DNA of 64,000 bases from Chiridota heheva (taxonomy: Eukaryota; Echinodermata; Holothuroidea; Apodida; Chiridotidae): positions 700,501 to 764,500 of the forward strand of contig JAIGNY010001798.1 of NCBI GenBank assembly GCA_020152595.1. The letters are read 5' to 3'. The notes under the pieces were generated by a model, which did no database searches, was not told where the DNA came from, and was given only the letters and a program-made list of their open reading frames with translations. Positions within the stretch are counted from its first letter, which is position 1, and each line of letters opens with the position of its first letter. The position numbers and the translations under genes were made by a program. Positions 2,669-64,000 of the stretch are shown here, piece after piece.

Positions 2669-2669
2669 C

Positions 2670-5423: not shown

Positions 5424-5656
5424 TGTGACATGGTTCATCTTACTCGTTAGGATCCTTGGAAGTTGAACTGCATTTTCAATTTGCTCGCTCTTTTTAGATG
5501 CTTGAAAGATTACAACTTTGAAAGATTATGTAGATAAATATATTTTAGAATGTACTATTAATGCCAAATGTCAAAAAATTCCTTTCTTGTAAATTGATTG
5601 GTCGTTTGTACGGTAGATGTTAAAAGCCTTTTGTAGAATTGTAATGACAAAACCCA

Positions 5657-7765: not shown

Positions 7766-7877
7766 GTGTAAAACTTGTAGTTTAGCATTACATGTCAAAA
7801 CTTGTAGTTTAGCATTACATGTCAAAACTTGAAGTTTAGCATTACATGTCAAAACTTGTAGTTTAGCATTACATGTC
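7766..7877. repeat. 27-bp minisatellite, four copies
   Basis: Unit gtcaaaacttgtagtttagc plus attacat. Confidence 0.9.
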
Positions 7878-7972
7878 ATTGCATGTCAAACCATCTCTTA
7901 AGAAGGGATTCCAAATCAATCAAAGCTATTTAAAGTTTATTTCCGAAAAGTGGAAAGTGTTTAGTTATACAT

Positions 7973-10419: not shown

Positions 10420-12005
10420 TCCAGATTGATGCTGTACTCATCAGATTGATGCTCTACTCATCAGATTGAAGCTGTACTCATCAGATTGATGCTCTACTCC
10501 TCAGATTGATGCTGTACTCATCAGATTAATGCTGTACTCCTCAGATTGATGCTCTACTCATCAAATTGATGCTGTACTCATCAGATTGATGCTCTACTCC
10601 TCAGATTGATGCTGTACTCCTCAGATTGATGCTGTACTCATCAGATTGATGCTCTACTTCTCAGATTGATGCTGTACTCATCAGATTGATGCTGTACTCC
10701 TCAGATTGATGCTGTACTCCTCAGATTGATGCTGTACTCATCAGATTGATGCTCTACTCATCAAATTGATGCTGTACTCATCAGATTGATGCTCTATTCC
10801 TCAGATTGATGCTGTACTCCTCAGATTGATGCTCTACTCCTCAGATTGATGCTGTACTCATCAGATTGATGCTGTACTCATCAGATTGATGCTGTACTCC
10901 TCAGATTGATGCTCTACTCCTCAGATTGATGCTCTACTCATCAGATTGATGCTGTACTCCTCAGATTGATGCTCTACTCCTCAGATTGATGCTGTACTCA
11001 TCAGATTGATGCTGTACTCCTCAGATTGATGCTGTACTCCTCAGATTGATGCTGTACTCATCAGATTGATGCTCTACTCATCAAATTGATGCTGTACTCA
11101 TCAGATTGATGCTCTATTCCTCAGATTGATGCTGTACTCCTCAGATTGATGCTCTACTCCTCAGATTGATGCTGTACTCATCAGATTGATGCTGTACTCA
11201 TCAGATTGATGCTGTACTCCTCAGATTGATGCTCTACTCCTCAGATTGATGCTCTACTCATCAGATTGATGCTGTACTCATCAGATTGATGCTGTACTCA
11301 TCAGATTGATGCTCTACTTCTCAGATTGATGCTGTACTCATCAGATTGATGCTGTACTCATCAGATTGATGCTCTACTCCTCAGATTGATGCTCTACTCC
11401 TCAGATTGATGCTGTACTCCTTAGATTGATGCTGTACTCATCAGATTGATGCTCTATTCCTCAGATTGATGCTCTATTCATCAGATTGATGCTCTACTCC
11501 TCAGATTGATGCTTTACTCCTCAGATTGATGCTTTACTCATCAGATTGATGCTGTACTCATCAGATTGATGCTGTACTCATCAGATTAATGTTTTACTCA
11601 TCAGATTGATGCTCTACTCCTCAGATTGATGCTCTACTCATCAGATCGATGCTCTACTCATCAGATCGATGCTCTACTCATCAGATCGATGCTCTACTCA
11701 TCAGATCGATGCTCTACTCATCAGATCGATGCTCTACTCATCAGATCGATGCTCTACTCATCAGATCGATGCTGTACTCATCAGATCGATGCTGTACTCA
11801 TCAGATTGATGCTGTACTCATCAGATTGAAGCTGTACTCATCAGATTGATGCTGTACTCATCAGATTGATGCTCTACTCATCAGATTGATGCTCTACTCA
11901 TCAGATTGATGCTCTACTCATCAGATTGATGCTCTACTCATCAGATTGATGCTCTACTCATCAGATTGATGCTCTACTCATCAGATTGATGCTCTACTCA
12001 TCAGA
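10420..12005. repeat. 20-bp minisatellite with 320-bp higher-order repeat
   Basis: Unit tcagattgatgctgtactca, about 79 copies. 10661-10940 and 10981-11260 carry the same order of variants, a 16-unit offset. A run of tcagatcgat variants lies at 11641-11800. Confidence 0.95.
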
Positions 12006-14075
12006 TACTATAGTATTTTGTATTTGATAAAAAGAGTATTTTGATTGGTACCATTTTTTGAAGTGTTGAAAATTATGTAAAAGAATCTTGCCACAATACC
12101 GCTTGATGATTTGACAATTTTCTACATATAATAGACCATCATTCATACCTAATTATATCTGAAAATGTCAGACAAAACTTGCATTTTTTTTTCTTCTTCT
12201 TTTTTAGTCCTGGAAATTGGTAGTATGTATATTCCAGATTTGCAGTTTATACTGCCATTTAATCCTAAATTTGTCATCTGAGTGTCAACTTTAAAAACCT
12301 TTCCAGCTATCATTCATATTCAAGAATTGTATGAAAACATATATAGTTGGTTATGCTGGTATGGTAATAAAATGATTGACCAGTGCTGCTGGCCAGTAGA
12401 AGTTGCTGGCCAGTGTTATGCTCTTAATACAACTCTCCCACTGTTGTCTTTTGTATAGACTAATTCAAGTTGTACAATTTAAAAGTTAGTGAGAAAATTA
12501 TTTTTTTATTCTCCAGTTTATGAGGGTAAAATGACACTTGAAGATGCCCAAGTGATTTCAATAATTTGTATTTTCTTTTGTGGAAGCAACTCACTTTTAT
12601 AGTATTTCATTGTGTATATGCTATTCGTGACCTGTATGGAACGTTTAAGGCAAAGTATAAGTTTGATAGTGGTGGCCGTCTTTCATCCTCATCAATATTG
12701 CCATGTCATATATAAAGATAAAGCCAAAATTGTATATTTTTGTCATTGTGTTATAACCATATAAAATTATGTAAATAGATTAGGCCAGATATAAAAATTG
12801 AATGCAACGTTGATTTGCAGGATCTTTTCACATTAAGATGGGGAAGCTATTTAACTGCCTTAAAGGGGTTTTGTCAATGCTAGAAGTATCTTTATTTAGG
12901 AGGTAAATCTGTTGATATTATTAACTTCTCAAATAAGATTGATTGAGTTAAGATGTATGAATAATGTTTACATGATACTTAGATGTAGAGATTCTCCAAT
13001 GTTGAGTACCAGCCTATTAACCATGTTAAGTACCAGCCTATTAACCCTTAAACGCCTTGTGCGTAAAAACCTGACAAAAGTTTTCTGGATTTTTTTTTTT
13101 AAATTAATTTTCACAACTTTCCTTTCATTATCTATTACTACAAGTTTGGTTTATATCAATGCTAAGACAAAAATTGAAATAAAGAAAATATTGACATAAA
13201 TTAGGCAAATGTTTTTGAGCTTGTATTCTTATGAATAACAAAAATGAACGATTTTTTTTACATGGATTGTTTGTGAATTATCGCAAGACTAAACAATTAA
13301 TTATCATCGCTGTAATTACTTGCGAAAAACAAAGCCGTGCACACGGCCAGTAATTGAATTTGGGACGTGTGCTTTGCCTAGCTTGATCACTATCCGCTAC
13401 ACCAGAACACATATGCTTCAGTATAATGGCATGAAGGAAGAGGGGGTAGTTGCTTTTTTTCTTTTCAATTGAAAGTATGTAAAGTAAGCTTCATCAAAAT
13501 ACTTTTGGCATGTGGTAAGTGTTACTGCAATCCAGAGTTATGATTTTTATTCTTCAAAAAATTTGTCTCAAAAAGGCTAAAAGTCATACAATTTTGCACA
13601 ACTTTTGCCCAAAAAAAAAAAATATTTTGATGATTGACTGGAATTGGTTACTTTGATGTCTTTGATAGTTCTTCACGGCTTTTCAAGTTTTCTGGAAGTA
13701 TAGCAAGTAAGCTTTTGAGAGAGAAAAATCCCCCATCAAAAAGTTACATTTTCTGAAAGAACTATGTGAGCTCTTTCAAATTGATATTAGGTTTACGTTT
13801 ATATCACGTTGTTAAGTTACCCAAATAATTGGGCGTGCCACGACCGGTTTGGGTATTTAAGGTTTAAAGTGTTTGTAGTTTATTGATTGGTTGTTTATTG
13901 CAATGGGGTGGGATGTATATGATGCGGCTCAGACAAAGTTATGTATATTCATTTATTCGACCTTTTTAGTTACTCAAGAGCTTTGGATGAATCATGTGCC
14001 ATTCATGCAAAAAATTAAATATATCAGAGAGATTCAATCCTGGATGTGTGTGGGGTTTTTTTTACTTCGTGTTGC
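12006..14075. other. AT-rich spacer with a tRNA-like relic
   Basis: A small duplication (atgttgagtaccagcctattaacc-like, 13000-13047) and the relic at 13338-13410. No gene recognised. Confidence 0.5.
13338..13410 (-). pseudogene. tRNA-like relic, probably SINE-derived
   Basis: The minus strand has CTGGTGTAGCGGATAGTGAT (A-box-like) and, about 35 bases on, an AAATTCAATTA B-box-like stretch. Too degenerate for an identity; similar in layout to the relic at 19601-19675. Confidence 0.3.
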
Positions 14076-14429: not shown

Positions 14430-15621
14430 CAATGAGGGTGGTGGGGGTGGCAGAGGGCGGCGGGGGTAGCAGAGAGGCGGCGGGGCCCGTGAGAGGGCGG
14501 GGGGCCGTCAGAGGGCGCCGGGGCCGAGAGGGGCCCGTAGAGGGGGCCCGAGAGGGCGAGAGGGGCGGGGCCCGGAGAGGGGGCGTGGGGCGGGCCCGGG
14601 GCGGGGACCCGTGAGGGCGGCGGGGACCCGAGAGGGGGGACCCGAGAGGGCGGGCCCGTGAGAGGGGGCCCGAGAGGGCGGCCCGTAGAGGGCCCGTAGA
14701 GGGCGGCCCGAGGGGGCGAGGGCGGCGAGGGCGGCCGTGAGAGGGGGCCCGTGGGGGGGGGCCCGAGAGGGGCGGGCCCGGGGAGGGCGGGCGTAGAGGG
14801 CGGCGGGGGCCCGTAGAGGGCGGCGGGGCCCGTAGAGGGCCCGTAGAGGGCGGCGGGGCCCGTAGAGGGCGGGGGGCCCGTAGAGGGCGGCGGGCCCGTA
14901 GAGAGGGCGGGGGCCCGTAGAGGGCGGCGGGGCCCGTAGAGGGCGGGGCCCAGAGGGCGGCGGGGCCCGTAGAGGGGCGGGGGCCCAGAGGGCGGCGGGG
15001 CCCGTGAGGGCGGCGGGGCCCGTGAGAGGGCGGCGGGGCCCGTAGAGGGGGCGGGGCCCGGAGGGCGGCGGGGCCCGTAGGGCGGCGGGGCCCGTAGAGG
15101 GCGGCGGGGCCCGTAGAGGGCGGCGGGGCCCGTAGAGGGCGGCGGGGCCCGTAGAGGGCGGCGGGGCCCGTAGAGGGCGGCGGGGCCCGTAGAGGGCGGC
15201 GGGGCCCGAGGGGCGGGGCCCGTAGAGGGCGGCGGGCCCAGAGGGCGGCGGGGCCCGTGAGGGCGGCGGGGCCCGTAGAGGGCGGCGGGGCCCGTAGAGG
15301 GCGGCGGGGCCCGTAGAGGGCGGCGGGGCCCGTAGAGGGCGGCGGGGCCCGTAGAGGGCGGCGGGGCCCGTAGAGGGCGGCGGGGCCCGAGGGGGCGGGG
15401 GGCCCGTAGAGGGCGGCGGGGCCCGTAGAGGGCGGCGGGGCCCGTAGAGGGCGGCGGGGCCGTAGAGGGCGGCGGGGCCCGTAGAGGGCGGCGGGGCCGT
15501 AGAGGGCGGCGGGCCCGTAGAGGGCGGCGGGCCCGTAGAGGGCGGCGGGGCCCGTAGAGGGCGGCGGGGCCCGTAGAGGGCGGCGGGGCCCGTAGAGGGC
15601 GGCGGGGCCCGTAGAGGGCGG
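14430..15621. repeat. 19-bp extremely GC-rich minisatellite
   Basis: Unit cggcggggcccgtagaggg, about 62 copies, degenerate at the left and regular at the right. All G runs are on the + strand. Long proline-rich minus frames (378-427 codons) exist only because of the repeat. Confidence 0.95.
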
Positions 15622-19806: not shown

Positions 19807-22800
19807 AGCTATGATGCTAGACGTGATACATGATGCTAGACGTGATACATGATGCTAGACGTGATACATGATGCTAGCCGTGATACATGATGCTAGACGT
19901 GATACATGATGCTAGACGTGATACATGATGCTAGACGTGATACATGATGCTAGACGTGATACATGATGCTAGACGTGATACATGATGCTAGACGTGATAC
20001 ATGATGCTAGACGTGATACATGATGCTAGACGTGATACATGATGCTAGACGTGATACATGATGCTAGACGTGATACATGATGCTAGACGTGATACATGAT
20101 GCTAGACGTGATACATGATGCTAGACGTGATACATGATGCTAGACGTGATACATGATGCTAGACGTGATACATGATGCTAGACGTGATACATGATGCTAG
20201 ACGTGATACATGATGCTAGACGTGATACATGATGCTAGACGTGATACATGATGCTAGACGTGATACATGATGCCAGACGTGATACATGATGCCAGACGTG
20301 ATACATGATGCCAGACGTGATACATGATGCCAGACGTGATACATGATGCCAGACGTGATACATGATGCCAGACGTGATACATGATGCCAGACGTGATACA
20401 TGATGCCAGACGTGATACATGATGCCAGACGTGATACATGATGCCAGACGTGATACATGATGCCAGACGTGATACATGATGCCAGACGTGATACATGATG
20501 CCAGACGTGATACATGATGCCAGACGTGATACATGATGCCAGACGTGATACATGATGCCAGACGTGATACATGATGCCAGACGTGATACATGATGCCAGA
20601 CGTGATACATGATGCCAGACGTGATACATGATGCCAGACGTGATACATGATGCCAGACGTGATACATGATGCCAGACGTGATACATGATGCCAGACGTGA
20701 TACATGATGCCAGACGTGATACATGATGCCAGACGTGATACATGATGCCAGACGTGATACATGATGCCAGACGTGATACATGATGCCAGACGTGATACAT
20801 GATGCCAGACGTGATACATGATGCCAGACGTGATACATGATGCCAGACGTGATACATGATGCCAGACGTGATACATGATGCCAGACGTGATACATGATGC
20901 CAGACGTGATACATGATGCCAGACGTGATACATGATGCCAGACGTGATACATGATGCCAGACGTGATACATGATGCCAGACGTGATACATGATGCCAGAC
21001 GTGATACATGATGCCAGACGTGATACATGATGCCAGACGTGATACATGATGCCAGACGTGATACATGATGCCAGACGTGATACATGATGCCAGACGTGAT
21101 ACATGATGCCAGACGTGATACATGATGCCAGACGTGATACATGATGCCAGACGTGATACATGATGCCAGACGTGATACATGATGCCAGACGTGATACATG
21201 ATGCCAGACGTGATACATGATGCCAGACGTGATACATGATGCCAGACGTGATACATGATGCCAGACGTGATACATGATGCCAGACGTGATACATGATGCC
21301 AGACGTGATACATGATGCCAGACGTGATACATGATGCCAGACGTGATACATGATGCCAGACGTGATACATGATGCCAGACGTGATACATGATGCCAGACG
21401 TGATACATGATGCCAGACGTGATACATGATGCCAGACGTGATACATGATGATGCCAGACGTGATACATGATGCCAGACGTGATACATGACATGATGCCAG
21501 AGATACATGATACATGATGCCAGACGTGATACATGATGCCAGACGTGATACATGATGCCAGAGATACATGATGATACATGATGCCAGACGTGATACATGA
21601 TGCCATGATGCCAGACGTGATACATGATGCCAGACGTGATACATGATGCCAGACGTGATACATGATGCCAGACGTGATACATGATGCCAGACGTGATACA
21701 TGATGCCAGACGTGATACATGATGACATGATGCCAGACGTGATACATGATGCCAGACGTGATACATGATGCCAGACGTGACATGATGCCAGACGTGATAC
21801 ATGATGCCAGACGTGATACATGATGCCAGACGTGATACATGATGCCAGACGTGATACATGATGCCAGACGTGATACATGATGCCAGACGTGATACATGAT
21901 GCCAGACGTGATGCCAGACGTGATACATGATGCCAGACGTGATACATGATGCCAGACGTGATACATGATGCCAGACGTGATACATGATGCCAGACGTGAT
22001 ACATGATGCCAGACGTGATACATGATGCTAGACGTGATACATGATGCCAGACGTGATACGTGATACGTGATACATGATGCCAGACGTGATACATGATGCC
22101 AGACGTGATACATGATGCCAGACGTGATACATGATGCCAGACGTGATATGATGCCAGACATGACATGATGCCAGACGTGATACATGATGCCAGACGTGAT
22201 ACATGATGCCAGATGCCAGACGTGATACATGATGCTAGACGTGATACATGATGCTAGACGTGATACATGATGCTAGACATGATACATGATGATGACGTGA
22301 TATACATGATGCTAGACGTGATACATGATGCTAGACGTGATACATGATGCTAGACGTGATACATGATGCTAGACGTGATACATGATGCTAGACGTGATAC
22401 ATGATGCTAGACGTGATACATGATGCTAGACGTGATACATGATGCTAGACGTGATACATGATGCTAGACGTGATACATGATGCTGATGCTGATGACGTGA
22501 TACATGATGCTAGACGTGATACATGATGCTAGACGTGATACATGATGCTAGACGTGATACATGATGCTAGACGTGATACATGATGCTAGACGTGATACAT
22601 GATGCTAGACATGATACATGATGCTAGACATGATACATGATGCTAGACGTGATACATGATGCTAGACGTGATACATGCTGCTAGACGTGATACATGATGC
22701 TAGACGTGATACATGATGCTAGACTTGATACATGATGCTAGACGTGATACATGATGCTAGACATGATACATGATGCTAGACATGATACATGATGCTAGAC

Positions 22801-22860
22801 ATGATACATGATGCTAGACATAATACATGATGCTAGACATGATACATGATGCTAGACATG
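19807..22860. repeat. 19-bp satellite, left block
   Basis: Unit gatgctagacgtgatacat, about 160 copies. The centre (about 20271-22020) is the gatgccagac variant, nearly identical over dozens of units; the flanks carry gatgctagac. Indel-scrambled patches appear from 21447 on. Minus-strand open frames of 589 to 658 codons in all three frames are artefacts. Confidence 0.97.
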
Positions 22861-23278
22861 CCTCACCCTTGCTCAACAAATTGCATTGGCTCCCTGTGTC
22901 ACAGCGAATTTAATACAAAACATGTCTTATTGTCTACAAATCCCTGGTACATCAATCACCTGAATACATATCCAACAGTCTGAAACTTTATACACCAGCA
23001 CGATCCCTTCGCTCCTCTTCTGAAAACTTCCTGACTGAACCCAGAACTAACACCAAAGCTGGTTCTAGGGCTTTTTCAGCTGCAGCACCCCATGTTTGGA
23101 ACTCTTTGCCTTCACACATTCGCCATGCCTGTTCACTTGGACAGTTCAAAACACGTCTCAAGACTTTTCTTTTTTAATCATGTATTACTTACTGAACTTT
23201 AGGGCAGCATTCTGGGCGCTTTGTATCCTATGGAAAAGGCGCCCACTACAAATGAACATGGATGGATGGATGGATGGA
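22861..23278 (+). mobile_element. L2/CR1-like LINE 3' end inserted in the 19-bp satellite
   Basis: 22863-23177 reads as the C-terminal end of a CR1/L2-type reverse transcriptase in one frame: LLNKLHWLPV, KTCLIVYKSL, PARSLRSSSENFL, SRAFSAAAPHVWNSLPSHIR, FKTRLKTFLF, then TAA at 23175. One internal TAA near 22909 breaks it. The 3' UTR has a gcgctttgtat ... ggcgcc stretch and a (ggat)n tail at 23260-23278. Satellite units resume at once; gacatg lies on both sides and may be the target duplication. Confidence 0.88.
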
Positions 23279-24672
23279 CATGATACATGATGCTAGACGT
23301 GATACATGATGCTAGACGTGATACATGATGCTAGACGTGATACATGATGCTAGACGTGATACATGATGCTAGACGTGATACATGATGCTAGACGTGATAC
23401 ATGATGCTAGACGTGATACATGATGCTAGACGTGATACATGATGATGCTGAGCTAGACGTGATACGATGATACATGATGCTAGACGTGATACATGATGCC
23501 AGATGATGCATGATGCTAGACGTGATACATGATGCTAGACGTGATACATGATGCTAGACGTGATACATGATGCTAGACGTGATACATGATGATGCTACAT
23601 GATGCTGACGTGACGTGATACATGATGCTAGACGTGATACATGATGCTAGACGTGATACATGATACATAGACGATACATGATGCTAGACGTGATACATGA
23701 TGCTAGACGTGATACATGATGCTAGATGATGATACACATGATGCTAGACGTGATACATGATGCTAGACGTGATACATGATGCTAGACGTGATACATGATG
23801 CTAGACGTGATACATGATGCTAGACGTGATACATGATGCTAGACGTGATACATGATGCTAGACGTGATACATGATGCTAGACGTGATACATGATGCTCGA
23901 TGATACATGATGCTAGACGTGATACATGATGCTAGACGTGATACATGATGCCAGACGTGATACATGATGAGACGTGATACATGATGCTAGACGTGATACA
24001 TGATGCTAGACGTGATACATGAGACATGATGCTAGACGTGATACATGATGCTAGACGTGATACATGATGCCAGACATGATGCTAGACGTGATACATGATG
24101 CCAGACGTGATACATGATGCCAGACGTGATACATGATGCCAGACGTGATACATGATGCCAGACGTGATACATGATGCCAGACGTGATACATGATGCCAGA
24201 CGTGATACATGATGCCAGACGTGATACATGATGCCAGACGTGATACATGATGCCAGACGTGATACATGATGCCAGACGTGATACATGATGCTAGACGTGA
24301 TACATGATGACGTGATACATGACGACGTGATACATGATGCCAGACGTGACATGATGCCAGACATGATGCCAGACGTGATACATGATGCCAGACGTGATAC
24401 ATGATGATGCCATGATGCCAGACGTGATACATGATGCCAGACGTGATACATGATGCCAGACGTGATACATGATGCCAGACGTGATACATGATGCCAGACG
24501 TGATACATGATGCCAGACGTGATACATGATGCTAGACGTGATACATGATGCTAGACATGATACATGATGCTAGACATGATACATGATGCTAGACATGATA
24601 CATGATGCTAGACATGATACATGATGCTAGACATGATACATGATGCTAGACATGATACATGATGCTAGACGT
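23279..24672. repeat. 19-bp satellite, right block
   Basis: The same unit as the left block, about 72 copies, more rearranged, with gctag flanks, a gccag core (24061-24520) and an acatg variant at the right edge. It was contiguous with the left block before the LINE insertion. Confidence 0.96.
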
Positions 24673-27219: not shown

Positions 27220-28247
27220 TATCGATTTTCGAAGCAAGATGCTTTTTCAGTGAACGGAAAGGAGGTTTGTTTGTTTGTTTGATAAGTGTAACGGCACCCC
27301 AACAGCAAGGGTCAAATTGTGCCTGAGAGGTTAGATCATTCTAGAGGTAGAAAGGAGGGTAAACAGGGGGAGATTGAGAGAAACACGAGAACTAAAAGCC
27401 AAAAAGCTTGAATCGAGAAAGGAGGTGTATGGGTGGAAAAAATAATGTACAGAGAGAGGGGGTGGGGAAGGAGGACTAAACTTTGGTTGTAGAGGGAAGC
27501 ATTATGAAGGAATGAGCTCATTTTATCCGGATTTTTTTTTTTTTTTTTTTGGAAGAGCTCTGGGAAGGTTGTATAGGGGGCGAGCAAAGAGAATGTGATG
27601 GACGGAAAGGAAGTGGATAACATTAATGAATTCGCATACTTAGGAGCCACCCTGACGAAAGATGGCGGAACAGTGATTGACATAAGGAGAAAAATAGGCA
27701 AGGCTGTAAACACTTTTATCACCTTAAACAACATTTGGAAATCTAACAACTACAGAATTAAAAAATATTTCAAACAACTGTTATGTCTGTGCTTTAATAC
27801 GGATCATGCACATGGAGAATGAATGATGGCGACAATAAACAATATTTAAAAAGTAGATACATTCCAACGAAACTGCCTAGGCAAAATATCAAATATCCGA
27901 TGGCCAGCAGTAATTCTAAATAACGACTTATATAGAAAGACAAAGATAGTACCAACAAGCATAACAAATCGTGAGAGAAGATGGAAAGAATTCATACATA
28001 TTTTACATAGAGATGCAAGCAATTATCAAAGGGTGGCTTTGACCTGGACACCAAATGGGCGAAGAAAAAGAGGCAAGCCAAAAACAACTTTTGAGGCAAA
28101 TGGTACAAAAGGAGAGAGAGATGCTCGGATGGGGGAGCTGGAACCAAGCAAGTGAAGTGGCACAAAACAGGAAAAGATGGATCTCTATGCTCAAGGACTC
28201 AATTTCCACTAAAGGAAAAGGGAGCAGTGAGTGAGTGAGTGATTATT
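27220..28247 (+). mobile_element. RTE-like LINE 3' end, interrupted by an I-like LINE
   Basis: After the nested I-like fragment the + strand reads DGKEVDNINEFAYLGATLTK, the C-terminal part of an endonuclease-reverse transcriptase. Later, in shifted frames, come VALTWTPNGRRKRGKPKTTF and a WNQASEVAQNRKRW-like end. It finishes with an (agtg)n tail at 28227-28244. Left of the I-like fragment, the bases before acggaaagga can be read as FSVNGKEV, which fits the same protein. The left limit is a guess. Stops and frameshifts make it a pseudogene. Confidence 0.7.
27264..27601 (-). mobile_element. I-like LINE 3' terminal fragment, nested
   Basis: Closely resembles 40511-40865, the 3' end of the I-like LINE: tttgtttgtttgtttgat tail, aacggcacc, attgtgcctgagaggt, gtagagggaagcat, ttttatccgga. 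A T tract at 27532-27551 interrupts it. It is flanked by acggaaagga at 27254-27263 and 27602-27611, read as a 10-bp target duplication. Only the last approximately 330 bp of the element are present. Confidence 0.75.
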
Positions 28248-28249: not shown

Positions 28250-29014
28250 ACACATATTAAAGTGCTTATCACCCAAAATGAATAAAAAATTAATTATTTT
28301 GGAATTTCACAATCCCTGTACGAGGGGGCGTAAATTTTCATAATAACAGCTAAGCTCATGGCCTCATTACAATATTTACATATTATGTTAGCCTGATATT
28401 CATGCATAATGTACTAAAATATTAAGCCAATTAGAAAAGTAGTTTTCAAGTTATTAAATACAGTTTCTTTACTTTAACCCCTGGTGCAGAGGGGCGCACG
28501 GAAAACGCCTGTAACTTTTTATTGCAATGTCCGATTTTGACGGGACCGTTGGAAAGCTCTCGTCGAACTCTATCTTATGACCATCCGACCTAAAACTGTA
28601 AAACAGAAATTTTCGATATTTCACAGAAATGATGCATAAGGATGTGCAACCCTAGAAATCTAATTCATTTTTTGAGATTTAAGAAACCTGATTTGGGATC
28701 AATGATCTTCAAATACTCTTTGTGAAGGGCTTATTCACCCCCACATCTGACTGAAATGACCCATCCCTCACTCCCAGGGGGATAACCGAGAATTTTTGCC
28801 TCTAGGCGGACGTGAGGGTATTTTCGGAGATTACTTCCGGTGTGAATAGACGTTTTAACTTAGATTGTACAAGCAAAAATTATCTTCGAATGATGTATGA
28901 CACTTAACCTTTGGAGACCCCTAGCATCCTAGGGGTCAAATCTGTATTCCAAAGCATCATGTGGGACGTCAGTCATGGGTCCATAATACGACTTTTGGGA
29001 CCCATAGACCCTAA
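28250..29014. other. Spacer, nothing recognised
   Basis: AT-rich between the RTE-like end and the 56-bp array. Confidence 0.5.
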
Positions 29015-32000
29015 TTTGGGTTTAGGTTATGGTTTATGGTTAAGGTATCACCCAACATAGGGCAAAGAATTATGGATCTAGGTTATGGATTTAGGTACAG
29101 GTACAACCCATTATGGCAGAGGAAATTATGGGTCTGGATAATTGTTTTAGATACAGGTATACTACCCATTATCACGCAGGGAATTATGGGTCTGGATTAT
29201 GGTTTATGGTCAAGGTACAACCCATTATGGCACAGAGAATTATGGGTCTAGGTAATGGTTTTAGGTATAGGTACAACCCATTATGGCACACGGAATTATG
29301 GGTCTAGGTTTTTGTTTTAGGTACAGGTACAACCCATTATGGCACAGAAAATTATCGGTCTGGATTATGGTTTATGGCTAAGATCCCACCCAATATAGGA
29401 TAGGGAATTATGGATCTAGGTTATGGTTTTAGGTACAGGTACAACCCATTATGGCACAGGGAATTATGGGTCTGGACTATGGTTTCTGGTAAGGATCGCC
29501 CCCAATACAGGACAGGGAATTATGGGTCTAGCTTATGGTTTTAAATACAGGTACAACCCATTATGGCACAGGGAATTATGGGTCTGGATTATGGTTTTAC
29601 GTATAGGTACAACCATCTATTATGGCACAGGGAATTATGGGTCTAGATTATTGTTTTAGGTACAGGTGCAACCCATTATGGCACAGGGAATTATGGGTCT
29701 GGAATATGGTTTATGGTTAAGGTACCACCCAATATAGGACGGGGAATTGGGGGTCTAGGTTATGGTTGTAGATACAGGTACAACCTATTATGGCACAGGG
29801 AACTATGGGTCTGGATTATTGTTTCTGGTAAAAATCCCACCCAATATAGGACAGGGAATTATGGGTCTCGGTTATGGTTTTACCTATAGGTACAACCCAT
29901 TATGGCACAGGGAATTATGGGTCTAGATTATTGTTTTAGGTACAGGTGCAACCCATTATGGCACAGGGAAATATGGGTCTGGAATATGGTTTATGGTTAA
30001 GATCCCACCCAATATAGGACAGGGAATTATGGGTCTAAGTTATTGTTTTAGGTACAAGTACAACCTATTATCACACAAGGAATTATGGGTCTAGGTTATG
30101 GTTTTACTTGTAGGTACAACCCATTATGGCAAAGGGAATTATGGGTCTAGATTATTGTTTTAGGTACAGGTGCAACCCATTATGGCACAGGGAAATATGG
30201 GTCTGGAATATGGTTTATGGTTAAGGTACCACCCAATATAGGACAGGGAATCATGGGTCTGGATTATGGTTTTAGGTAAAGATCCCACCCAATATAGGAC
30301 AGGGAATTAGGAGTCTAGGTTATGGTTTTAGGTACAGGTACAACCCATAATGGCATAGGGAATTATAGGTCTAGGGTATGGTTTTAGGTACAGGTACAAC
30401 CCATTATCACACAGGGAATTATGGGTCTAGATTATGATTTCTGGTAAATATCCCACCCAATAAAGGACAGGGAATTATGAGTCTAGATTATGGTTTTAGG
30501 TACAGGTACAACCCATAATGGCATAGAGAATTATAGGTCTAGGGTATGGTTTTAGGTACAGGTACAACCCATTATCACACAGGGAATTATGGGTCTAGAT
30601 TATGGTTTTAGGTAAAGATCCCACCCAATATAGGACAGGGAATTATGAGTCTAGGTTATGGTTTTAGGTACAGGTACAACCCATAATGGCATAGAGAATT
30701 ATAGGTCTAGGGTATGGTTTTAGGTACAGGTACAACCCATTATCACACAAGGAATTTTGGATCTAGATTATGGTTTCAGGTAAAGATCCCACCCAATATA
30801 GGACAGAAAATTATGAGTCTAGGTTATGGTTTCAGGTACAGGTACAACCCATTATCACACAGGGAAATATGGGTCTGGATTATGATTTCTAATAAAGATC
30901 CCCCCCAATATAGGACAGGGAATTATGGGTCTAAGTTATGCTTTTAGGTACAGGTACAACCCATTATGGCACAAGAAATTATGGATCTAGATTATGGTTT
31001 TAGGTAAAGATCCCACCCAATATAGGACTGTGAATTATGGCTCTAGGTTATGGTTTTAGGTACAGGTACAACCCATTATCACACAGGGAATTATGGGTCT
31101 AGATTATGGTTTTAGGTAAAGATCCCACCCAATATAGGACAGGGAATTATGAGTCTAGGTTATGGTTTTAGGTACAGGTACAACCCATAATGGCATAAAG
31201 AATTATAGGTCTAGGGTATGGTTTTAGGTACAGGTACAACCCATTATCACACAAGGAATTATGGGTCTAGATTATGGTTTCAGGTAAAGATCCCACCCAA
31301 TATAGGACTGTGAATTATGGCTCTAGGTTATGGTTTTAGGTATAGGTACAACCCATTATGGCACAAGGAATTATAGGTCTAGATTTTTGTTTTAAGTACA
31401 GGTACAACCCATTATGGCACAGGAAATTATGGGTCTGAATTATGGAAGATCCCACCCAATATAGGACAGGAAATTATGGGTCTAGGTTTTGGTTTTAGGT
31501 ACAGGTACAACCCATTATCACAAAAGAAACTATGGGTTTGTTTTTTGGTTTCTGGTAAAAATCCCACCCAATACAAGACAAGGAATTATGGGTCGAGGTT
31601 ATGGTTTTAAGTATAGGTACAACCTATTATGGCACAAGGAAGTGTGGGTCTAGGTTATGGTTTTAGGTACAGGCACAACCTATTATGGCACAAGGAAGTG
31701 TGGGTCTAGGTTATGGTTTTAGGTACAGGCACAACCTATTATGGCACAAGGAAGTGTGGGTCTAGGTTATGGTTTTAGGTACAGGCACAACCTATTATGG
31801 CACAAGGAATTATGGGTTTAGGTTATGATTTTAGGTACAGGTACAACCCATTATGGCACAGGGAATTATGGGTCTAGGTTATGGTTTTAGGTACAGGTAC
31901 AACCCATTATGGCACAGGGAATTATGGGTCTAGGTTACGGTTTTAGGTATAGGTACAACCCATTATGGCACAAGAAAATAAGGGTCTAGGTTAAGTTTTA

Positions 32001-32215
32001 AGTATAAGTACAACCCATTATGGCACAAGGAATTATGGACCTAGGTTATGGTTTTAGGTACAGGTACAACCTATTATGGCACAAGGAATTATGGGTTTAG
32101 GTTATGATTTTAGGTACAGGTACAACCCATTATGGCACAAGGAATTATGGGTCTAGGTTATGGTTTTAGGTACAAGTGCAACCCATTATGGCACAGGCAA
32201 TTATGGGTCTGGGCT
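29015..32215. repeat. 56-bp array with two alternating unit types
   Basis: About 57 copies. All share gggaattatgggtctag and gttatggttttaggta. Type A continues caggtacaacccattatggc; type B continues aagatcccacccaatatagg. Both are 56 bp. A block of three near-identical units (aaggaagtgtgggtctag) lies at about 31625-31800. Confidence 0.93.
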
Positions 32216-32216
32216 A

Positions 32217-33115
32217 TTCTATGTCCCGAAAGATGCTATTGACGTACTGCATTTTTTCTTCTTCATCTTTTGGAGCGTAAAAAATTAATGCAACATGCGG
32301 GACGTAAAATGCAACATTCGGGACGTGAAATGCAACATTCGGGACGTGAAATGCAACATTCGGGACGTGAAATGCAACATTCGGGACGTGAAATGCATTA
32401 TTAAATGCGACATTCGGGATGTGAAAAGAAAAAAAACGTGCTATTTTGTTATGCATTGACAAGACTCCATTTAAATTTCTAACTTTAAAACTGTAATTAA
32501 ATTTTTGTTGGTGTTGCATTATATGGGACGTGTCAGAAATAATCCGACTTTTGGGACGTAATTAACCTAATTTTCGAAGGATCGATAAAAATCGATTGAT
32601 CAATAAAAATCGATTGATCAATAATGGTGATTTGGGCTACTCTATGTCCCAAAAGATGTTATTGACGTACTGCATTTTTTCTTCTTCATCTTTTGGAGCG
32701 TAAAAAATTAATGCAACATGCGGGACGTAAAATGCAACATTCGGGACGTGAAATGCAACATTCGGGACGTGAAATGCAACATTCGGGACGTGAAATGCAA
32801 CATTCGGGACGTGAAATGCAACATTCGGGACGTGAAATGCAACATTCGGGACGTGAAATGCAACATTCGGGACGTAAAATGCAACATTCGGGACGTGAAA
32901 TGCAACATTAAATGCGACATTCGGGAAGTAAAAAAAAAACGTGTCATTTTGTTATGCATTGACATGACTCCATTCATATTTTTAAATTTAAAACTGTAAA
33001 TAAAATTTTGTTGGTGTTGCATTATATGGGACGTGTCAGAAATAATCCGACTTTTGGGACGTAATTAACCTAATTTTTGGAAGATCGATAAAAATCGATT
33101 GATCAATAATGGTGA
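32217..33115. repeat. Tandem duplication of a block with an internal 21-bp array
   Basis: The block from ctatgtccc through the 21-bp array (unit gggacgtgaaatgcaacatt plus c), gtgttgcattatatgggacg and atcgattgatcaataa occurs twice. Left anchors are 422 bp apart, right anchors 503 bp, so the second array (32712-32930) has about four more units than the first (32290-32400). Confidence 0.92.
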
Positions 33116-36989: not shown

Positions 36990-38110
36990 ACGTGTGTATA
37001 TGTTAGGTGTGGTACACATTGTTGAACTTAAACTTTGCATAGTTTTAGCTGTATATATGTTAGGTGTGGAACACTTTGTTAAATTTGAACTTTGCATAGT
37101 TTTAGCTGTATATATGTTAGGTGTGGAACACATTGATGAACTTGAACTTCGCATAGTTTTAGCTGTATATATGTTAGGTGTGGTACACATTGTTGAACTT
37201 AAACTTTGCATAGTTTTAGCTGTATATATGTTAGGTGTGGAACACCTTGTTGAACTTAAACTTCGCATAGTTTGAACTGTATATATGTAAGGTGTGGAAC
37301 ACATTGTTGAACTTAAACTTTGCATAGTTTTAGCTGTATATATGTTAGGTGTGGAACACTTTGTTAAATTTGAACTTTGCATAGTTTTAGCTGTATATAT
37401 GTTAGGTGTGGAACACATTGATGAACTTGAACTTCGCATAGTTTTAGCTGTATATATGTTAGGTGTGGTACACATTGTTGAACTTAAACTTTGCATAGTT
37501 TTAGCTGTATATATGTTAGGTGTGGAACACCTTGTTGAACTTAAACTTCGCATAGTTTGAACTGTATATATGTAAGGTGTGGAACACATTGTTGAACTTA
37601 AACTTCGCATAGTTTTAGCTGTATATATGTTAGGTGTGGAACACATTGTTGAACTTGAACTTCGCATAGCTTAAGCTGTATATATGTTAGGTGTGGAACA
37701 CATTGTTGAACTTAAACTTTGCATAGTTTTAACTGTATATATGTTAGGTGTGGAACACATTGTTGAACTTAAACTTTGCATAGTTTTAGCTGTATATATG
37801 TTAGGTGTGGAACACATTGTTGAACTTGAACTTCGCATAGCTTAAGCTGTATATATGTTAGGTGTGGAACACATTGTTGAACTTAAACTTTGCATAGTTT
37901 TAACTGTATATATGTTAGGTGTGGAACACATTGTTGAACTTAAACTTTGCATAGTTTTAACTGTATATATGTTAGGTGTGGAACACATTGTTGAACTTAA
38001 ACTTTGCATAGTTTTAACTGTATATATGTTAGGTGTGGTACACGTTGTTGAACTTAAACTTTGCATAGTTCTAGTTGTATATATGTTAGGTGTGGAACAC
38101 ATTGTTGAAC
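36990..38110. repeat. 57-bp minisatellite with 285-bp and 171-bp higher-order repeats
   Basis: About 19-20 copies; unit tgtatatatgttaggtgtgg then aacacattgttgaac and a gcatagtttt stretch. The acactttgtt variant recurs 285 bp apart (37071, 37356); the cttaagctg variant recurs 171 bp apart. 57 is divisible by 3, so both strands look open. Confidence 0.95.
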
Positions 38111-38316
38111 TTGAACCTCGCCTTGAATTCAGGTTTGCTGTTGGAATTCTAAATGCACATACACTGCATATTGTCATCTAAACATATAACTGAGTGCACT
38201 ATATGTACATATACTGATCAGGTAATTATCACGTACCTGTTTTACCCTTTTTCATTGTTGTATTAGGCCAAAGTAGCTTTGAAGGTCTGACATTACTCGA
38301 ACGTAATATGAAACGA

Positions 38317-39167: not shown

Positions 39168-39921
39168 CTACAGGGAAGAACGCTTTCCACTCCCGCAGCG
39201 CGTTTTTATACGATATGGTCTGCGTTTTTCAGATCTGGGAAACGCAGACCTGGAAAATACAGACCCATTTTTGTGTTTTTTTATGACAACATCGGAACAT
39301 AACAGCTAGTTTTGGTGCGGTACCCTCGTGTCATATTTCACCGGAGAATTTAGGCCATTCGTTATATAGTCGGTGGGCCAACCGTAGACCCCCCTCCCCC
39401 CACTCCCCCCTTAGGGATTTTCATCCACTACACTTTTTAGTTGTTCGCCCCCCTCACATCAATGAAAATTGTATATTTTGCCCCTCAGTCATGAATGTTA
39501 AGTATTATGTAAATTGGGTGTTAAGACCCCCCTCCCCCTCCTCTAATTGAATCCCACACCCGCCACTGGCTGTTGCTATGGCAACGCCAAGATAAACAAA
39601 TGAATTTGAGAAAATGCCATAACATTAATTCATAATACATATGGCCCCTTGATGACGTCATGCGCCACTGCTCAAATCACCTCTTAGACTGGGTACCAGA
39701 TACGTTTGATCTGGCTGCTGCTAAGAAGGCCTACGGAATATTGTGGTCGTATGCAGATCGATTTTGCCATGTCATCATTCGACTGAGGGCATTCCACATG
39801 GCATGTGCATACATCGGTGCATTAGGAAAGTATATGAAAGGGAGTGGATTTGTGCAAGTGCCAGTTGAATCTGCAGTGTGTGCAAGTGGTTCCATCGAAA
39901 AAGTCATGAATGGAAAACACT

Positions 39922-40037
39922 ACAACAGGGCCAGGTATGTTTTTAGAACATCTATGGAAGCTCTAGAACGGCTATTGTGACAACAGGGCCAGGTATGTTA
40001 TCAGAACATCGATGGAAGCTCTAGAACGGCTATTGTG
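39922..40037 (+). repeat. 58-bp tandem duplication inside the transposon gene
   Basis: The stretch starting acaacagggccaggtatgtt at 39922 is repeated at 39980 with few changes. Because 58 is not a multiple of 3, the first copy runs into a TGA at 39978 and the second continues in another frame. Confidence 0.9.
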
Positions 40038-40503
40038 GGCTTCATTTCAAGATGAAGATGGATTAGTCATCGGTGAGCAGGAAATGAAGCTGATGTCAGT
40101 TCTGGCAAAAACATCAAATTCTGAACACTTGTCCGCTGTCAAGCAAAACTCCAAATGGAAGGAATGGATACAGGAGTATGATGGGTACAAAGCGAAGGTG
40201 CGTGCTGGAGAAAAGGGCAAAACGGCACAATTCTGGCTAGGTTACATGGATAGGGCATGGCTCCTAATGTGTTTCTTGAGGGCTACAAAAATCAATGACA
40301 TCACCTTGCACATGGCCTGTCTATATGAAATGCTCCCTTCAATCAAGAGAAGCCAACCTATGCCAGGTATACACCACTATACTTAATCACACTTCTCAAC
40401 CTGCGACACACATCTTGGTGCAATGGAGCTACTTAAGAAGAAAGGAATGAGTGTGAATCGCTCTGCAGTTCCTAACTCTCGCAATGCTGTAGACATAACA
40501 ATA

Positions 40504-41820
40504 GAACAGTTTGTTTGTTTGTTTGATGAGGGCTTAACGGCACCACGACAACGAGGGTAAAATTGTGCCTGAGAGGTCAGATTATTCTAGAGGTAGGAAG
40601 GAAAGGAAACAGGGGGAGAATAGAAAAATTCAAGAACAAAAGGTCAGAAAGCTGTGATCGAGAGGGGAGGTGCATGGTTAAAACAAAAGCAAAGTAGAGA
40701 GGGGTGGAAGAGGAGAATTAAATATGGTTGTAGAGGGAAGCATGATGAAAGAAGGAGATAATTTTATCCGGAGGATTTTTCTGGAAGAACTCAGCAATTG
40801 AGTTGTGGGAAGCGAGGGAAGCTCTGGGAAGTTTGTACAGGGGGCAAGCAAAGAGAACTTGATGGATTGTGAGGGTGCAATGACAATTGTTGCAGAGGGG
40901 TTGAGGGAGCCAATAAGGAGGTGAGAGTGAGTGAGGTGGGTGTGACCAATTCTAAGACGGGTAATATGAACGTTGTCGATACGAGAGAGGTTGTTTATGG
41001 TGGATTTGATCGGAATTGGGGGCTGGATGACATGGAGTTTGTTATCAATTTGGGAGTTCCATGAGGTTTGCCAGCGGTCACCAACAAGGAAAGCGATAAG
41101 CGGTTTGATGTCAGAGAGGGTTTTGGGGAAAGGGGTAGGGAGGAGGTTGAGGGAAAGCTTGGCGGCTGCATCAGCCCTGTCATTGCCAGGAATGCCAACA
41201 TGGTTGGGTATCCAGAAGAAAAGAATACTTTTCCTGCAGAGGGTGGGAGGAAGGAGTTTCCGGATGAGGAGGTGGCATGTGAGGTTATCCCATTTCAGAT
41301 TAAGTAAAGAAGTAAGAACAGCCTTTGAGTCGGAAAAAATGGCAAAGTGGCTGAGCGGAGAGTACTCAATAAAGTTAAGGGCAAGGAGAATGGCTTTAGC
41401 CTCGGCTGAAAAGATGGATGAGTAGTCGGGGAAGTGTTGCCTTCCTTGGAGCCATCAGTATAGATGGAGGTGTAATTTGAGAGTTTGTCTTTGATTTGGT
41501 TGTGGAGATTGATGAAGAGGTTAGGGTGGGTTTGAGTTTTGTGATGAGTGTAGAGGCCGAGGTGGACAGAAGGGAGGGGTGGCCCAAGGAGTAAAAGTGG
41601 GCCAGGAGAAGATGCCGAGAGTGGCGGGGTTGATGCCGAGATGGAAGAGGTCTGATTTAATGCGTAAGCTGAAGAGAGGGGATAGGGTTTTAGTCCTATC
41701 AAAGAGGGTGGAGAAATTGGGGTACCTAATGAGGTTGTAAACAGGGTTCTGGGTGTTGGGTGTCTAAAAGCATAGGAGAGGCTAAGCTTTCTACATCTAA
41801 GTAGAAAGGGGGGTTCGTTG
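40504..41820 (-). mobile_element. I-like LINE (RNase H type), 5'-truncated 3' end, inside the transposon gene
   Basis: Minus-strand reading shows a ribonuclease H domain: YTSIYTDGSKEGN (about 41450-41490), then FSDSKAVL, and WIPNHVGIPGNDRAD (about 41180-41225), followed by a His/Cys-rich C-terminal segment. The 3' tail is (CAAA)n on the minus strand, seen as tttgtttgtttg at about 40510. The reverse transcriptase region is absent. The element interrupts a coding block between ATAGAACAG and about 41825. A target duplication is not visible, so the right edge is approximate. Related ends lie at 27264-27601 and 48874-49729. Confidence 0.82.
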
Positions 41821-43019
41821 GCTTATAAACGTCATGCCAGTGGGCATGGTCCAGGTATTATTGGCTTCAGTCGCAACTTGGCAGCGTACCATAGGTGGAG
41901 TTTTACTCGGCATGCACGAGCTGGCTATCTAGAGGTAAGCATGAGCTAGTGTATCTTATTTTAGGGGTGGTGCAATTGTTCAATTTACATATAGACACGG
42001 GTTCTGTGGCAAGATGGGAAAATAGTCCGGGGCATTGGCAACAATCTTTGCAATGCATTGCTTTCACTCCACGCTTTCACCGGCTGTGATACTATTAGTT
42101 CATTTGTTCGTAAAGGCAAGGTGGGACCCCTGCGTGTGCTGCAAAAAAAAAAAACGCAATATATTCCTGTCTTCACAGGTTGGGTACAAGCTCTACTCTC
42201 AATCCAGGAACGTTTGATGATCTAGAAGCATTTACATGTCTTTTATATGGGGCAAAGACAGGAGTCAAGGACATCAACAAGCTGCGGTATACCATGTTCA
42301 TGACACGTTACACACCAAATAACCAGCTACTGTCCAGTGAAAGTGGCATTGACCTAAGTTTGCTTCCACCCTGCAGATTCTCCTTAAGGATGCATGTTGT
42401 ACGTGCCAATTATCAGGCTCTCATATGGAACCAAGCTGATTTAACATATCCGGGACTGCCAAAGCCCGACGATGGTCATGGATGGGTTCTACGGGGAGAC
42501 AAATTGGAGTACCAATGGACAGAAGATGAAATGCTACCAAAGGAACTGATCGATTTAGTATTGGAGCAGGATCATGAAGAAGATGATACTGAAGCTGACT
42601 ACTATAACATGCAAGAAGATATGTTTGATGATGAGGAGGATGATGATGACTTATATGAATTGTAAGAGAATTGACCTCATGTGGAATACCATTTCATATG
42701 TTTTGGAAAGTAGTATGCAGCATACAGACATTAAAAATTAAGCTTTCTGCTGTCTTTGTGGCTTTTTTCAACATCTTTTAATTAATATATTTTGTGGTGG
42801 ACATTTTTTGGAAAAGCAGAATTGGCATAAAAATCACCATGAACACCTTAATATGCTTCCCTTAGGACCCCAGTTGTCAGTGAACTTACAGATCAGCATT
42901 TGGTCTTCTCAGTCGTGTCAGTATGTAACCAAAAACATGCATGTATCTAAGTAACACATTAAAGTATGTTACAAATATAATAATGGTTTGTAGAATACTG
43001 TAAGACAATTTGATGTAAA

Positions 43020-44090
43020 TGAACATTCCTCTAGGCATTGCGATTAAGCATGACTGTATCTAAGGACCCAGATATTGATTGCAATCAACCGGCTAATCTA
43101 AAATCTATACAGGCCTATACATATATAATTATATTGTGATTTCATATTATATTGTAGCGTATTACAACTAAGAGAAGACCGGGGATATGAAATTTCCAAA
43201 TTGACCAATTTCATTTTTTTTCACACAGTTATCATGGCAACTTTTATGATTGGGCATGATTGTGACCTTGACACTACATCCCTATATGCCTATACACTAG
43301 CATTGTTTACTTAAAAATATATGACAATTTTTCCCTATTTTTATATCACGGCATTGACATGGCAATTGTCCTGATTAGGCATGACCGTGACCTTAAAAGA
43401 CCCAGATCTTGATTGCAATCTAATGGGCAGTTTCAAATATATATACTTAGACACTGGAATGTGTTTTTATGCTGTAAAGTTTCAAAGATATGACCTTTTC
43501 TATCAAATTCAAGCTTTTTGTCACCGAGTTGCCATGGCAACGGTCATGATAAGGCATGATTGTGACCTCAAATGACCTAGATCTTGATTACAACCAATAT
43601 GGCGGCTTCAAATATATATACTTAATTAAACACTACATCCCTATATGCCTATACACTAGCATTGTTTACTTAAAAATATATGACAATTTTTCCCTATTTT
43701 TAATTTTTTATCACGGCATTGACATGGCAATTGTCCTGATTGGGCATGACCGTGACCTTAAAAGACCCAGATCTTGATTGCAATCTAATGGGCAGTTTCA
43801 AATATATATACTTAGACACTGGAATGTGTTTTTATTCTGTAAAGTTTCAAAGATATGACATTTTCTATCAAATTCAAGCTTTTTGTCACCGAGTTGCCAT
43901 GGCAACGGTCATTATACGGCATGATTGTGACCTCAAATGACCTAGATCTTGATTACAACCAATATGGCAGCTTCAAATATATATACCTAATTAAACATAT
44001 ATGTGTTTTAATGTTGTTTAGTTACAAATATATGTCATTTTCTTAAATTCCATTTTTTATCACTTCGTTGCCATGACAACGCCCTGGCGG
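43020..44090 (+). repeat. Decayed sub-repeats (about 175 bp, paired as 365 bp) in the transposon right end
   Basis: Units carry GTTGCCATGGCAAC-like palindromes or catggcaatt variants followed by gcatgaccgtgacctt or gcatgattgtgacct, then gatcttgattgcaatc and a tatatata tract. Anchors lie near 43228, 43353, 43528, 43722, 43893 and 44067. 43381-43620 and 43746-43985 are near-identical with a 365-bp offset. Confidence 0.85.
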
Positions 44091-44476
44091 TCACACCCAC
44101 CATCAGTTTAATGGCAAACAAGCAGAAAATGATTGCTGAGGGTCCAGACTAACTAAAAAGTGTAGTGGTTGAAAATCCCTAAGGGGAGGGGAAGGGGGGG
44201 GGGGTGGTTTCGATATAATGGCCCATAGACTAATATGTATGCTAAGCAACGAGTGACCCGATTTAGTGCATATAATCATTTAGTGTTAGTATTTGGTATG
44301 GGATGGTACCGGTAGCTTTAGGACCAAAATTTAGATTTCCGGTATAAAATGTATAGGCTTACAACATCGAAATATGGCTTAAAAACGTACATAGCTTAAT
44401 ACAGCAATCAAAAGCAATATTCCTGTTCTAGGTTTGAGTGAAATATCATGATTAAGGATATATGTTGGGTTTTTTT

Positions 44477-50863: not shown

Positions 50864-61209
<10,346 letters not shown>

Positions 61210-61670: not shown

Positions 61671-64000
61671 TGGTTGAGGTTGGCAGGTCGGTTAAAGTAA
61701 GGTGAGGTTGGCGGGTTGAGGTTGGCGGGGGGTTGAGGTTGGCGGTTGAGGTTGGCGGGTTGAGGTTGGCGGGTTGAGGTTGGCGGGTTGAGGTTGAGGT
61801 TGGCGGGTTGAGGTTGGCGGGTTGAGGTTGGCGGGGTTGAGGTTGGCGGGTTGAGGTTGGCGGGTTGAGGTTGGCGGGTTGAGGTTGGCGGGTTGAGGTT
61901 GGCGGGTTGAGGTTGGCGGGTTGAGGTTGGCGGGTTGAGGTTGGCGGGTTGAGGTTGGCGGGTTGAGGTTGGCGGGTTGAGGTTGGCGGGTTGAGGTTGG
62001 CGGGTTGGTTGAGGTTGGCGGGTTGAGGTTGGCGGGTTGAGGTTGGCGGGTTGAGGTTGGCGGGTTGAGGTTGGCGGGTTGAGGTTGGCGGGTTGAGGTT
62101 GGCGGGTTGAGGTTGGCGGGTTGAGGTTGGCGGTTGAGGTTGGCGGGTTGAGGTTGAGGTTGGCGGGTTGAGGCTGGCGGGTTGAGGTTGGCGGGTTGAG
62201 GCTGGCGGGTTGAGGCTGGTTGGGGTTGAGGCTGGCGGGTTGAGGTTGGCGGGTTGAGGCTGGCGGGTTGAGGCTGGCGGGTTGAGGCTGGCGGGTTGAG
62301 GCTGGCGGGTTGAGGCTGGCGGGTTGAGGCTGGCGGGTTGAGGCTGGCGGGTTGAGGCTGGCGGGTTGAGGTTGGCGGGTTGAGGTTGGCGGGTTGAGGT
62401 TGGCGGGTTGAGGCTGGCGGGTTGAGGCTGGCGGGTTGAGGCTGGCGGGTTGAGGCTGGCGGGTTGAGGTTGGCGGGTTGAGGCTGGCGGGTTGAGGCTG
62501 GCGGGTTGAGGTTGGCGGGTTGAGGCTGGCGGGTTGAGGTTGGCGGGTTGAGGCTGGCGGGTTGAGGCTGGCGGGTTGAGGCTGGCGGGTTGAGGCTGGC
62601 GGGTTGAGGCTGGCGGGTTGAGGCTGGCGGGTTGAGGCTGGCGGGTTGAGGCTGGCGGGTTGAGGTTGGCGGGTGGAGGTTGGCGGGTTGAGGTTGGCGG
62701 GTTGGAGGTTGGCGGGTTGAGGTTGGCGGGTTGAGGTTGGCGGGTGGAGGTTGGCGGGTTGAGGTTGGCGGGTGGAGGTTGGCGGTGGAGGTTGGCGGGT
62801 GGAGGTTGGCGGGGAGGTTGGCGGGTGAGGTTGGGCGGGTTGAGGTGGGCGGGTGGAGGTGGGCGGGTGGAGGTGGGCGGGTGGAGGTGGGCGGGTTGGA
62901 GGTGGGCGGGTGGAGGTGGGCGGGTGAGGTGGGCGGGTGAGGTGGGCGGGGTGAGGTGGGCGGGTGGAGGTGGGCGGGGTGAGGTGGGGGGGTGGAGGTG
63001 GGCGGGGTGGTGGGCGGGGTGGAGGTGGGCGGGGTGAGGTGGGCGGGGTGAGGTGGGCGGGGGTGAGGTGGGCGGGGTGAGGTGGGCGGGGTGAGGTGGG
63101 GGGGGGTGGGGTGGGCGGGGTGAGGTGGGCGGGGCTCAGGTGGGCGGGGTGAGGTGGGCGGGGTGAGGTGGGCGGGTGGGTGGGGGTGAGGTGGGCGGGG
63201 TGAGGTGGGCGGGATCAGGTGGGCGGGATCAGGTGGGCGGGACGAGGTGGGCGGGATCAGGTGGGCGGATCAGGTGGGCGGGATCAGGTGGGCGGATCAG
63301 GTGGGCGGGATCGAGGTGGGCGGGATCAGGTGGGCGGGATCAGGTGGGCGGGATCAGGTGGGCGGGATCGAGGTGGGCGGGATCAGGTGGGCGGGATCGA
63401 GGTGGGCGGGATCAGGTGGGCGGGATCAGGTGGGCGGGATCGAGGTGGGCGGGATCAGGTGGGCGGGATCAGGTGGGCGGGACGAGGTGGGCGGGATCGA
63501 GGTGGGCGGGACGAGGTGGGCGGGACGAGGTGGGCGGGACGAGGTGGGCGGGACGAGGTGGGCGGGACGAGGTGGGCGGGACGAGGTGGGCGGGACGAGG
63601 TGGGCGGGACGAGGTGGGCGGGACGAGGTGGGCGGGACGAGGTGGGCGGGACGAGGTGGGCGGGACGAGGTGGGCGGGACGAGGTGGGCGGGACGAGGTG
63701 GGCGGGACGAGGTGGGCGGGACGAGGTGGGCGGGACGAGGTGGGCGGGACGAGGTGGGCGGGACGAGGTGGGCGGGACGAGGTGGGCGGGACGAGGTGGG
63801 CGGGACGAGGTGGGCGGGACGAGGTGGGGGGCGAGGTGGGAGGTGGGCGGGACGAGGTGGGCGGGACGAGGTGGGCGGGACGAGGTGGGCGGGACGAGGT
63901 GGGCGGGACGAGGTGGGCGGGACGAGGTGGGCGGGACGAGGTGGGCGGGACGAGGTGGGCGGGACGAGGTGGGCGGGACGAGGTGGGCGGGACGAGGTGG
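61671..64000. repeat. 15-bp G-rich array in kinase intron 9, open at the window end
   Basis: At least 2.3 kb. The unit changes along the array: gttgaggttggcggg, then gttgaggctggcggg, gtggaggtgggcggg, gatcaggtgggcggg and finally gacgaggtgggcggg. G runs stay on the + strand throughout. Confidence 0.95.

Follow-up and report, generated by a model that had tools for sequence, protein, structure and literature searches.

The AcademX lineage of Academ DNA transposons carries an XPG-like nuclease. AcademX insertions are described with duplications of 3 or 4 bp, and the difference between Academ lineages is linked to the encoded helicase and nuclease (PMC10045372). An amplification of Academ elements has been reported from bivalves, where their mean length is 5565 bp (PMC10294476), and Academ is listed among the DDD/E superfamilies (PMC9587614). 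The Repbase rule for non-autonomous elements is a terminal alignment from position 1 to 11 (PMC4455052). Here we analyze a 64,000-nucleotide stretch of the genome of the holothuroid Chiridota heheva, referred to throughout as the window, which contains a DNA transposon with inverted ends at 39367-44232. We consider it likely that this is a non-autonomous copy of a cut-and-paste family in which longer members carry the gene for a single large protein between long inverted repeats, the best candidate for its identity being the nuclease-bearing lineage of Academ (AcademX). The element is probably an AcademX-like, non-autonomous Academ member, placed by description.

Boundaries and genomic copies of the transposon

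A preliminary description made from the DNA letters had proposed two inverted anchors almost 5 kb apart, in an element at 39362..44240. The inverted similarity of the two regions, about 4.8 kb apart, is real and far above chance. Compared without gaps, the arms 39388-39456 and 44137-44205 show 81% complementarity across 69 nt, and the arms 39572-39621 and 44031-44080 show 78% across 50 nt. A gapped alignment of one end with the other scores 156, a value that neither 500 shuffles (highest score 55.5) nor 1000 random window pairs (highest score 95) approach. The inverted end sequences are TAGTCGGTGGGCCAA and TAGTCTATGGGCCA, and their tips differ (TAGTCGG and TAGTCTA). The interval 39367-44232 is the insertion of a single DNA transposon, bounded by inverted ends and flanked by the 3-bp target-site duplication ATA; the coordinates first proposed lay within 8 bases of it. 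Both anchors are genuine, although GTTGCTATGGCAAC, taken at first for a second terminal anchor, is instead one of several subterminal palindromes. The boundary features are as follows.

39364..39366, no strand: left 3-bp target-site duplication ATA, the same as 44233-44235 and not extendable to 4 bp
39367..44232 (4866 bp), plus strand: whole element, a non-autonomous copy of transposon family 1, set by tips and duplications common to other copies
39367..39456, plus strand: left terminal inverted repeat, outer part, from the arm comparison and other copies
39572..39585, plus strand: subterminal palindrome GTTGCTATGGCAAC, from the palindrome search of the window
43062..44080, plus strand: right subterminal repeat units with palindromes at 43228, 43528, 43893 and 44067, including a 365-bp tandem duplication (43271-43997)
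44137..44232, minus strand: right terminal inverted repeat, outer part, from the arm comparison
44233..44235, no strand: right 3-bp target-site duplication ATA, paired with 39364-39366

We searched the genome (1.10 Gb in 3744 contigs) and compared the window copy with 26 family-1 copies. Twenty are the top DNA matches, from 119 first-look candidates of which 40 were scored, and six are lower-identity protein matches. With strict tip patterns, 12 sequences in the set made up of the first 20 copies plus the window copy have both ends, and an exact 3-bp duplication flanks all 12. Laxer patterns applied to all 27 sequences find both ends in 19 and an exact 3-bp duplication, never a longer one, in 18 of these; the other eight are without one or both ends, some since the fetched stretch stops short. 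The duplication is TTA or TAA in 11 of the 18, and the remaining seven are CCA, TAT (twice), TTG, ATT, TAC and ATA. About 450 bp of the left repeat are gone at 39440 in the window copy, a deletion unseen in any other copy that has a left tip.

The interior is shared as consistently as the ends. The first coding block is covered at 85% or more in 26/26 fetched copies and the C-terminal block is present in 24/26. An antisense fragment that interrupts the gene is at least half covered in 24/26 (the exceptions, which do not have it, are L032 and L024, the latter truncated), and a search with anchor sequences located both of its junctions in 17 of the 20 first-set copies and in the window copy. In the search for further copies that had been proposed at the outset, the ends travel together with the gene blocks and the antisense fragment. 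Between pairs of copies the mean divergence in four segments is 0.043-0.058 (range 0.011-0.097), so the copies are fairly young, with a common ancestor that was itself already damaged. One locus, L025, holds a tandem rearranged copy at 1499-8958 (gene orientation), in which the left end and block A are each present twice and there are three copies of the antisense fragment.

The subterminal palindrome belongs to a series that lies in repeat units of roughly 175-190 bp. When the whole 64-kb window was searched for GTTGCCATGGCAAC-like palindromes with up to 2 substitutions, all five matches (39572, 43228, 43528, 43893 and 44067) fell inside the element's subterminal repeats. Family 2, introduced below, is without these palindromes and has CCAAAATGGCG-like repeats in their place. 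Lying on both sides of the element, the palindromes are probably binding sites for its transposase. We take the GTTGCCATGGCAAC-like motif to resemble the RFX X-box, and family 1 might therefore scatter X-box-like sites across the genome.

Gene remnants, decay and a second family

The coding features of the window copy are listed here by reference to L029, an element of family 2, and L032, a family-1 copy of 7251 bp.

39702..40509, plus strand: coding block 1 (TFDL ... D-TIE region), from tblastn with the L029 protein (residues 146-399) and BLASTP
40510..41820, minus strand: antisense RNase H-bearing fragment in the coding sequence, probably a 5'-truncated long interspersed nuclear element, from the RNase_H match and the empty site in L032
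41843..41938, plus strand: short coding block 2 (NRHASGHGPGIIGFSRNLAAYHRW...), placed by its collinearity with L032 4285-4362, a segment that tblastn aligns with L029 as far as residue 430
42016..42150, plus strand: coding block 3 (HAFTGCDTISSFVRKGK), from tblastn with the L029 protein (residues 856-900)
42183..42665, plus strand: C-terminal coding block with a stop codon at its end, from the open reading frame 42114-42665 and tblastn with L029 (residues 927-1032)

These blocks are remnants of one gene, broken by the antisense fragment at about 40510-41820. In block 1 the reading frame is broken, and there is a tandem duplication of 58 bp (39922-39979/39980-40037) that is also present in L009. 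Block 2 has no tblastn match of its own to L029 in the window and was recovered only via L032. The RNase_H match of the antisense fragment scores 23.8 bits, slightly below the curated Pfam cut-off of 25.8, and is the sole real match among the Pfam and structure searches. Elsewhere in the window, 27265-27602 holds another copy of this fragment's 3' part, at 75% identity, and the match begins at 40509, the insertion boundary of the fragment in the element.

Comparison of the copies reveals layers of damage. L032 is free of the antisense fragment: in it, the counterparts of window positions 40509 and 41850 are only 4 bases apart, as expected of an empty site. It alone (1/26 copies) keeps the N-terminal exon with WDNFD. 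The antisense fragment is present, the N-terminal exon absent and the nuclease core retained in L010, L017 and L033-L036, so that with L032 the core is found in 7/26 copies. The window copy has in addition a core deletion of about 1.9 kb (L032 4461-6407), with its junction at 42024-42026, at the start of block 3. L037 has the identical junction, and first-set copies align straight over it. The window copy has lost the N-terminal exon, gained the antisense fragment and lost the nuclease-core exons, and its lineage has nevertheless multiplied. A MITE-like insertion (miniature inverted-repeat transposable element) whose inverted ends are about 146 nt long (84%) lies in the N-terminal exon region of L032 at 2974-3485, and similar sequence occurs at L027 8479-8907.

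The proposal of a gene-bearing transposon is borne out, with the correction that this copy is non-autonomous, a condition invisible in the letters that the preliminary description had before it. Movement of such a copy would be possible only in trans. Replacement/silent ratios in four family-1 coding stretches are 1.02, 0.51, 0.87 and 1.51, and shifted frames of the first three give 0.57-1.04; three family-2 copies give 0.83-1.03, with 0.49-0.85 in shifted frames. These ratios give no sign of selection on the copies. Copies that are mobilized in trans and drift once inserted should behave in this way, and the result is no proof of a living source. The copies record a stepwise decay, from full gene through N-terminal loss and an inserted fragment to loss of the nuclease core, within a multiplying family, which makes it a clean case of mobilization in trans.

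Family 2 encodes a protein about 36% identical to that of family 1 and carries the same gene between its own inverted repeats, which are about 475-500 bp long with TAG[AT]CGG tips. Both loci with two ends among the five fetched (L031 and L092) are flanked by the 3-bp duplication ATA. The reading frame is uninterrupted for up to 1067 residues (L029), and the frame list gives this common protein as the only long coding sequence found in family-2 elements. Window segments 39702-40509, 42016-42150 and 42231-42560 are collinear with it (BLASTP, tblastn), as are the extra exons of L017 and L010. In L091, two adjoining frames of 778 and 421 residues together span about 1,200, and the N-terminus matches L032 at 33% over 160 residues (E 4e-22). 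The gene is the element's own, as had been suggested, because longer relatives and family 2 carry it as the sole long coding sequence found between inverted repeats.

The suggestion that this type of gene is highly multiplied also holds in this genome. A core-query protein search returned 801 first-look candidates, and the 150 that were scored include further groups besides families 1 and 2, at roughly 33-48% identity and with open frames of up to 768 residues; C1382, with a 799-residue open frame, belongs to family 2. L093 is 43-52% identical to L096-L098. These four and L094, known here as protein groups, have EEADTR, RSPDTDV and TGCD..GKGK motifs and open frames longer than those of the window family.

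Outside the element, twelve strong tandem arrays with units of 14-57 bases and multiples cover much of the window (1737-2666, 4583-5421, 5652-7276, 7971-9008, 10422-12006, 14792-15621, 19811-24672, 29013-32217, 36993-38116, 51088-52291, 55505-56092 and 61703-64000). Frames of at least 170 residues elsewhere in the window are mostly simple or tandem repeats.

The encoded protein and rival explanations

The gene in the window resembles a broken remnant of a large transposition enzyme that belongs to the family itself. The N-terminal part of the family protein has the conserved acidic motifs WDNF, TFDL and D-TIE, which could be a DDE set. The C-terminal part has D, D, EE, D.D and D in the order of the FEN/XPG motifs, an arrangement that recurs across the further groups. 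We propose that the N-terminal part would act as a DDE-type transposase domain, cutting and joining at the TAGTC tips with a 3-bp stagger, and that the C-terminal nuclease-like part may trim flaps or junctions during excision or repair. The transposase would bind the subterminal palindromes, and an intact relative, of which none was seen, would supply the protein in trans.

Several observations weigh against this reading. Pfam, NCBIfam and PDB returned no match of weight for the transposon protein; the queries were the window blocks, the L017 and L010 exons, L029, L091 (including its N-terminal exon counterpart), L093 and profiles A2 and A4. Chance-level matches were discarded in Pfam (DUF1254, 0.089; PRK, 0.19; RLMM_N, 0.068), as were a Tc-toxin domain name (0.015; its 14.8 bits fall below the cut-off of 25) and two PDB entries (0.51 and 0.12). 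Separately, a search for relatives in phages and viral contigs found none. The acidic motifs of FEN1 are spaced 52/72/2/19/2/52, and the family's spacing of 37/101/1/26/2/57 differs. In comparison with a profile built from 22 archaeal FEN-1 proteins (26 were drawn from 53 loci and 4 of them removed because of stops), the score is weak, with P 0.023, an HH probability of only 2.1% and 4/200 column shuffles as high, although the best alignment places the last acidic motif and the glycine-rich helix motif in register. A narrower first profile was not significant (21/200 shuffles as high; 19.75 versus 15.7 reversed). FEN/XPG homology of the C-terminal part is thus suggestive only. No single uninterrupted frame of 1,200 residues was seen among the copies examined, and L028, whose left end matches poorly, is the sole both-ended copy that does not have an exact duplication.

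Two independent MITE insertions that flank an unrelated gene by chance might explain ends that are only about 80% alike and differ at their tips; the preliminary description had named this as the outcome that would refute it. We regard this as next to impossible, since 18/19 both-ended copies repeat the unit complete with its 3-bp duplication, block 1 is in every fetched copy, and the same ends, blocks and antisense fragment occur together in one internal layout. An ordinary host gene was likewise rejected, as many loci carry the element unit with target duplications. The gene could also be a captured passenger of a transposon moved by an unrelated transposase, and the non-autonomous state of the window family and replacement/silent ratios scattered about 1 would suit this. 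It is improbable, given that family 2, at about 36% identity, has the gene between its own inverted repeats with its own tips and 3-bp duplications, and no other long coding sequence was found in its elements.

A further alternative is a separate superfamily that merely resembles Academ in its 3-bp duplications and nuclease-like part. The protein is abundant here and yet covered by no Pfam or NCBIfam family model, and Academ was compared by description. Absence from Pfam is not absence from Repbase, however, and both the duplication length and a nuclease-like part agree with AcademX (PMC10045372), and the length is near the reported bivalve Academ mean of 5565 bp (PMC10294476), so we think a separate superfamily unlikely. 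We are equally doubtful of its stronger form, in which the protein would define a large unmodelled animal transposon group apart from Academ and a ~1,200-residue enzyme would couple a cut-and-join domain to a FEN-like flap nuclease; if true, such a transposon would bring its own junction-processing enzyme. Boundaries, target duplications and gene layout are now set for a protein group unrecognized here by Pfam and NCBIfam, whose members would probably enter genome annotations as a multitude of uncharacterized genes.

Comparison with described superfamilies

PIF/Harbinger elements make 3-bp duplications of the form TWA and encode a Harbinger transposase, and EnSpm/CACTA elements combine CAC-type tips with a 3-bp duplication. 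Neither fits this element: 7/18 exact duplications are not TTA or TAA, the tips are TAGTC, and neither L029 nor L091 has a Pfam transposase match. KolobokE and KolobokP resemble it in joining a DDD/E transposase to an extra nuclease, but the Kolobok lineages differ in their 4-bp TTAA duplications and other nuclease types (PMC9587614). Kolobok was ruled out because no family-1 duplication extends to 4 bp. FEN/XPG nucleases share the acidic motif order, and the family's GCD...GKGK aligns onto the FEN GTD...GIG; the HH probability of 2.1%, the other spacings and the setting within a transposon protein set them apart.

The preliminary suggestion of a DNA transposon group without a known transposase finds no support in that form, since the duplications, DDE-like motifs and FEN/XPG-like part fit Academ (AcademX) by description. 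The window copy differs in being without the N-terminal exon and nuclease core, and its likeness to Academ is one of description. The placement follows from the 3-bp duplications and the nuclease-like part. The 3-bp duplications of families 1 and 2 fall within the 3 or 4 bp given for AcademX, whose nuclease would have its counterpart in the nuclease-like part of the family protein, with the weak FEN profile score noted above (PMC10045372). The element length is likewise close to the 5565-bp mean stated for bivalve Academ elements (PMC10294476).

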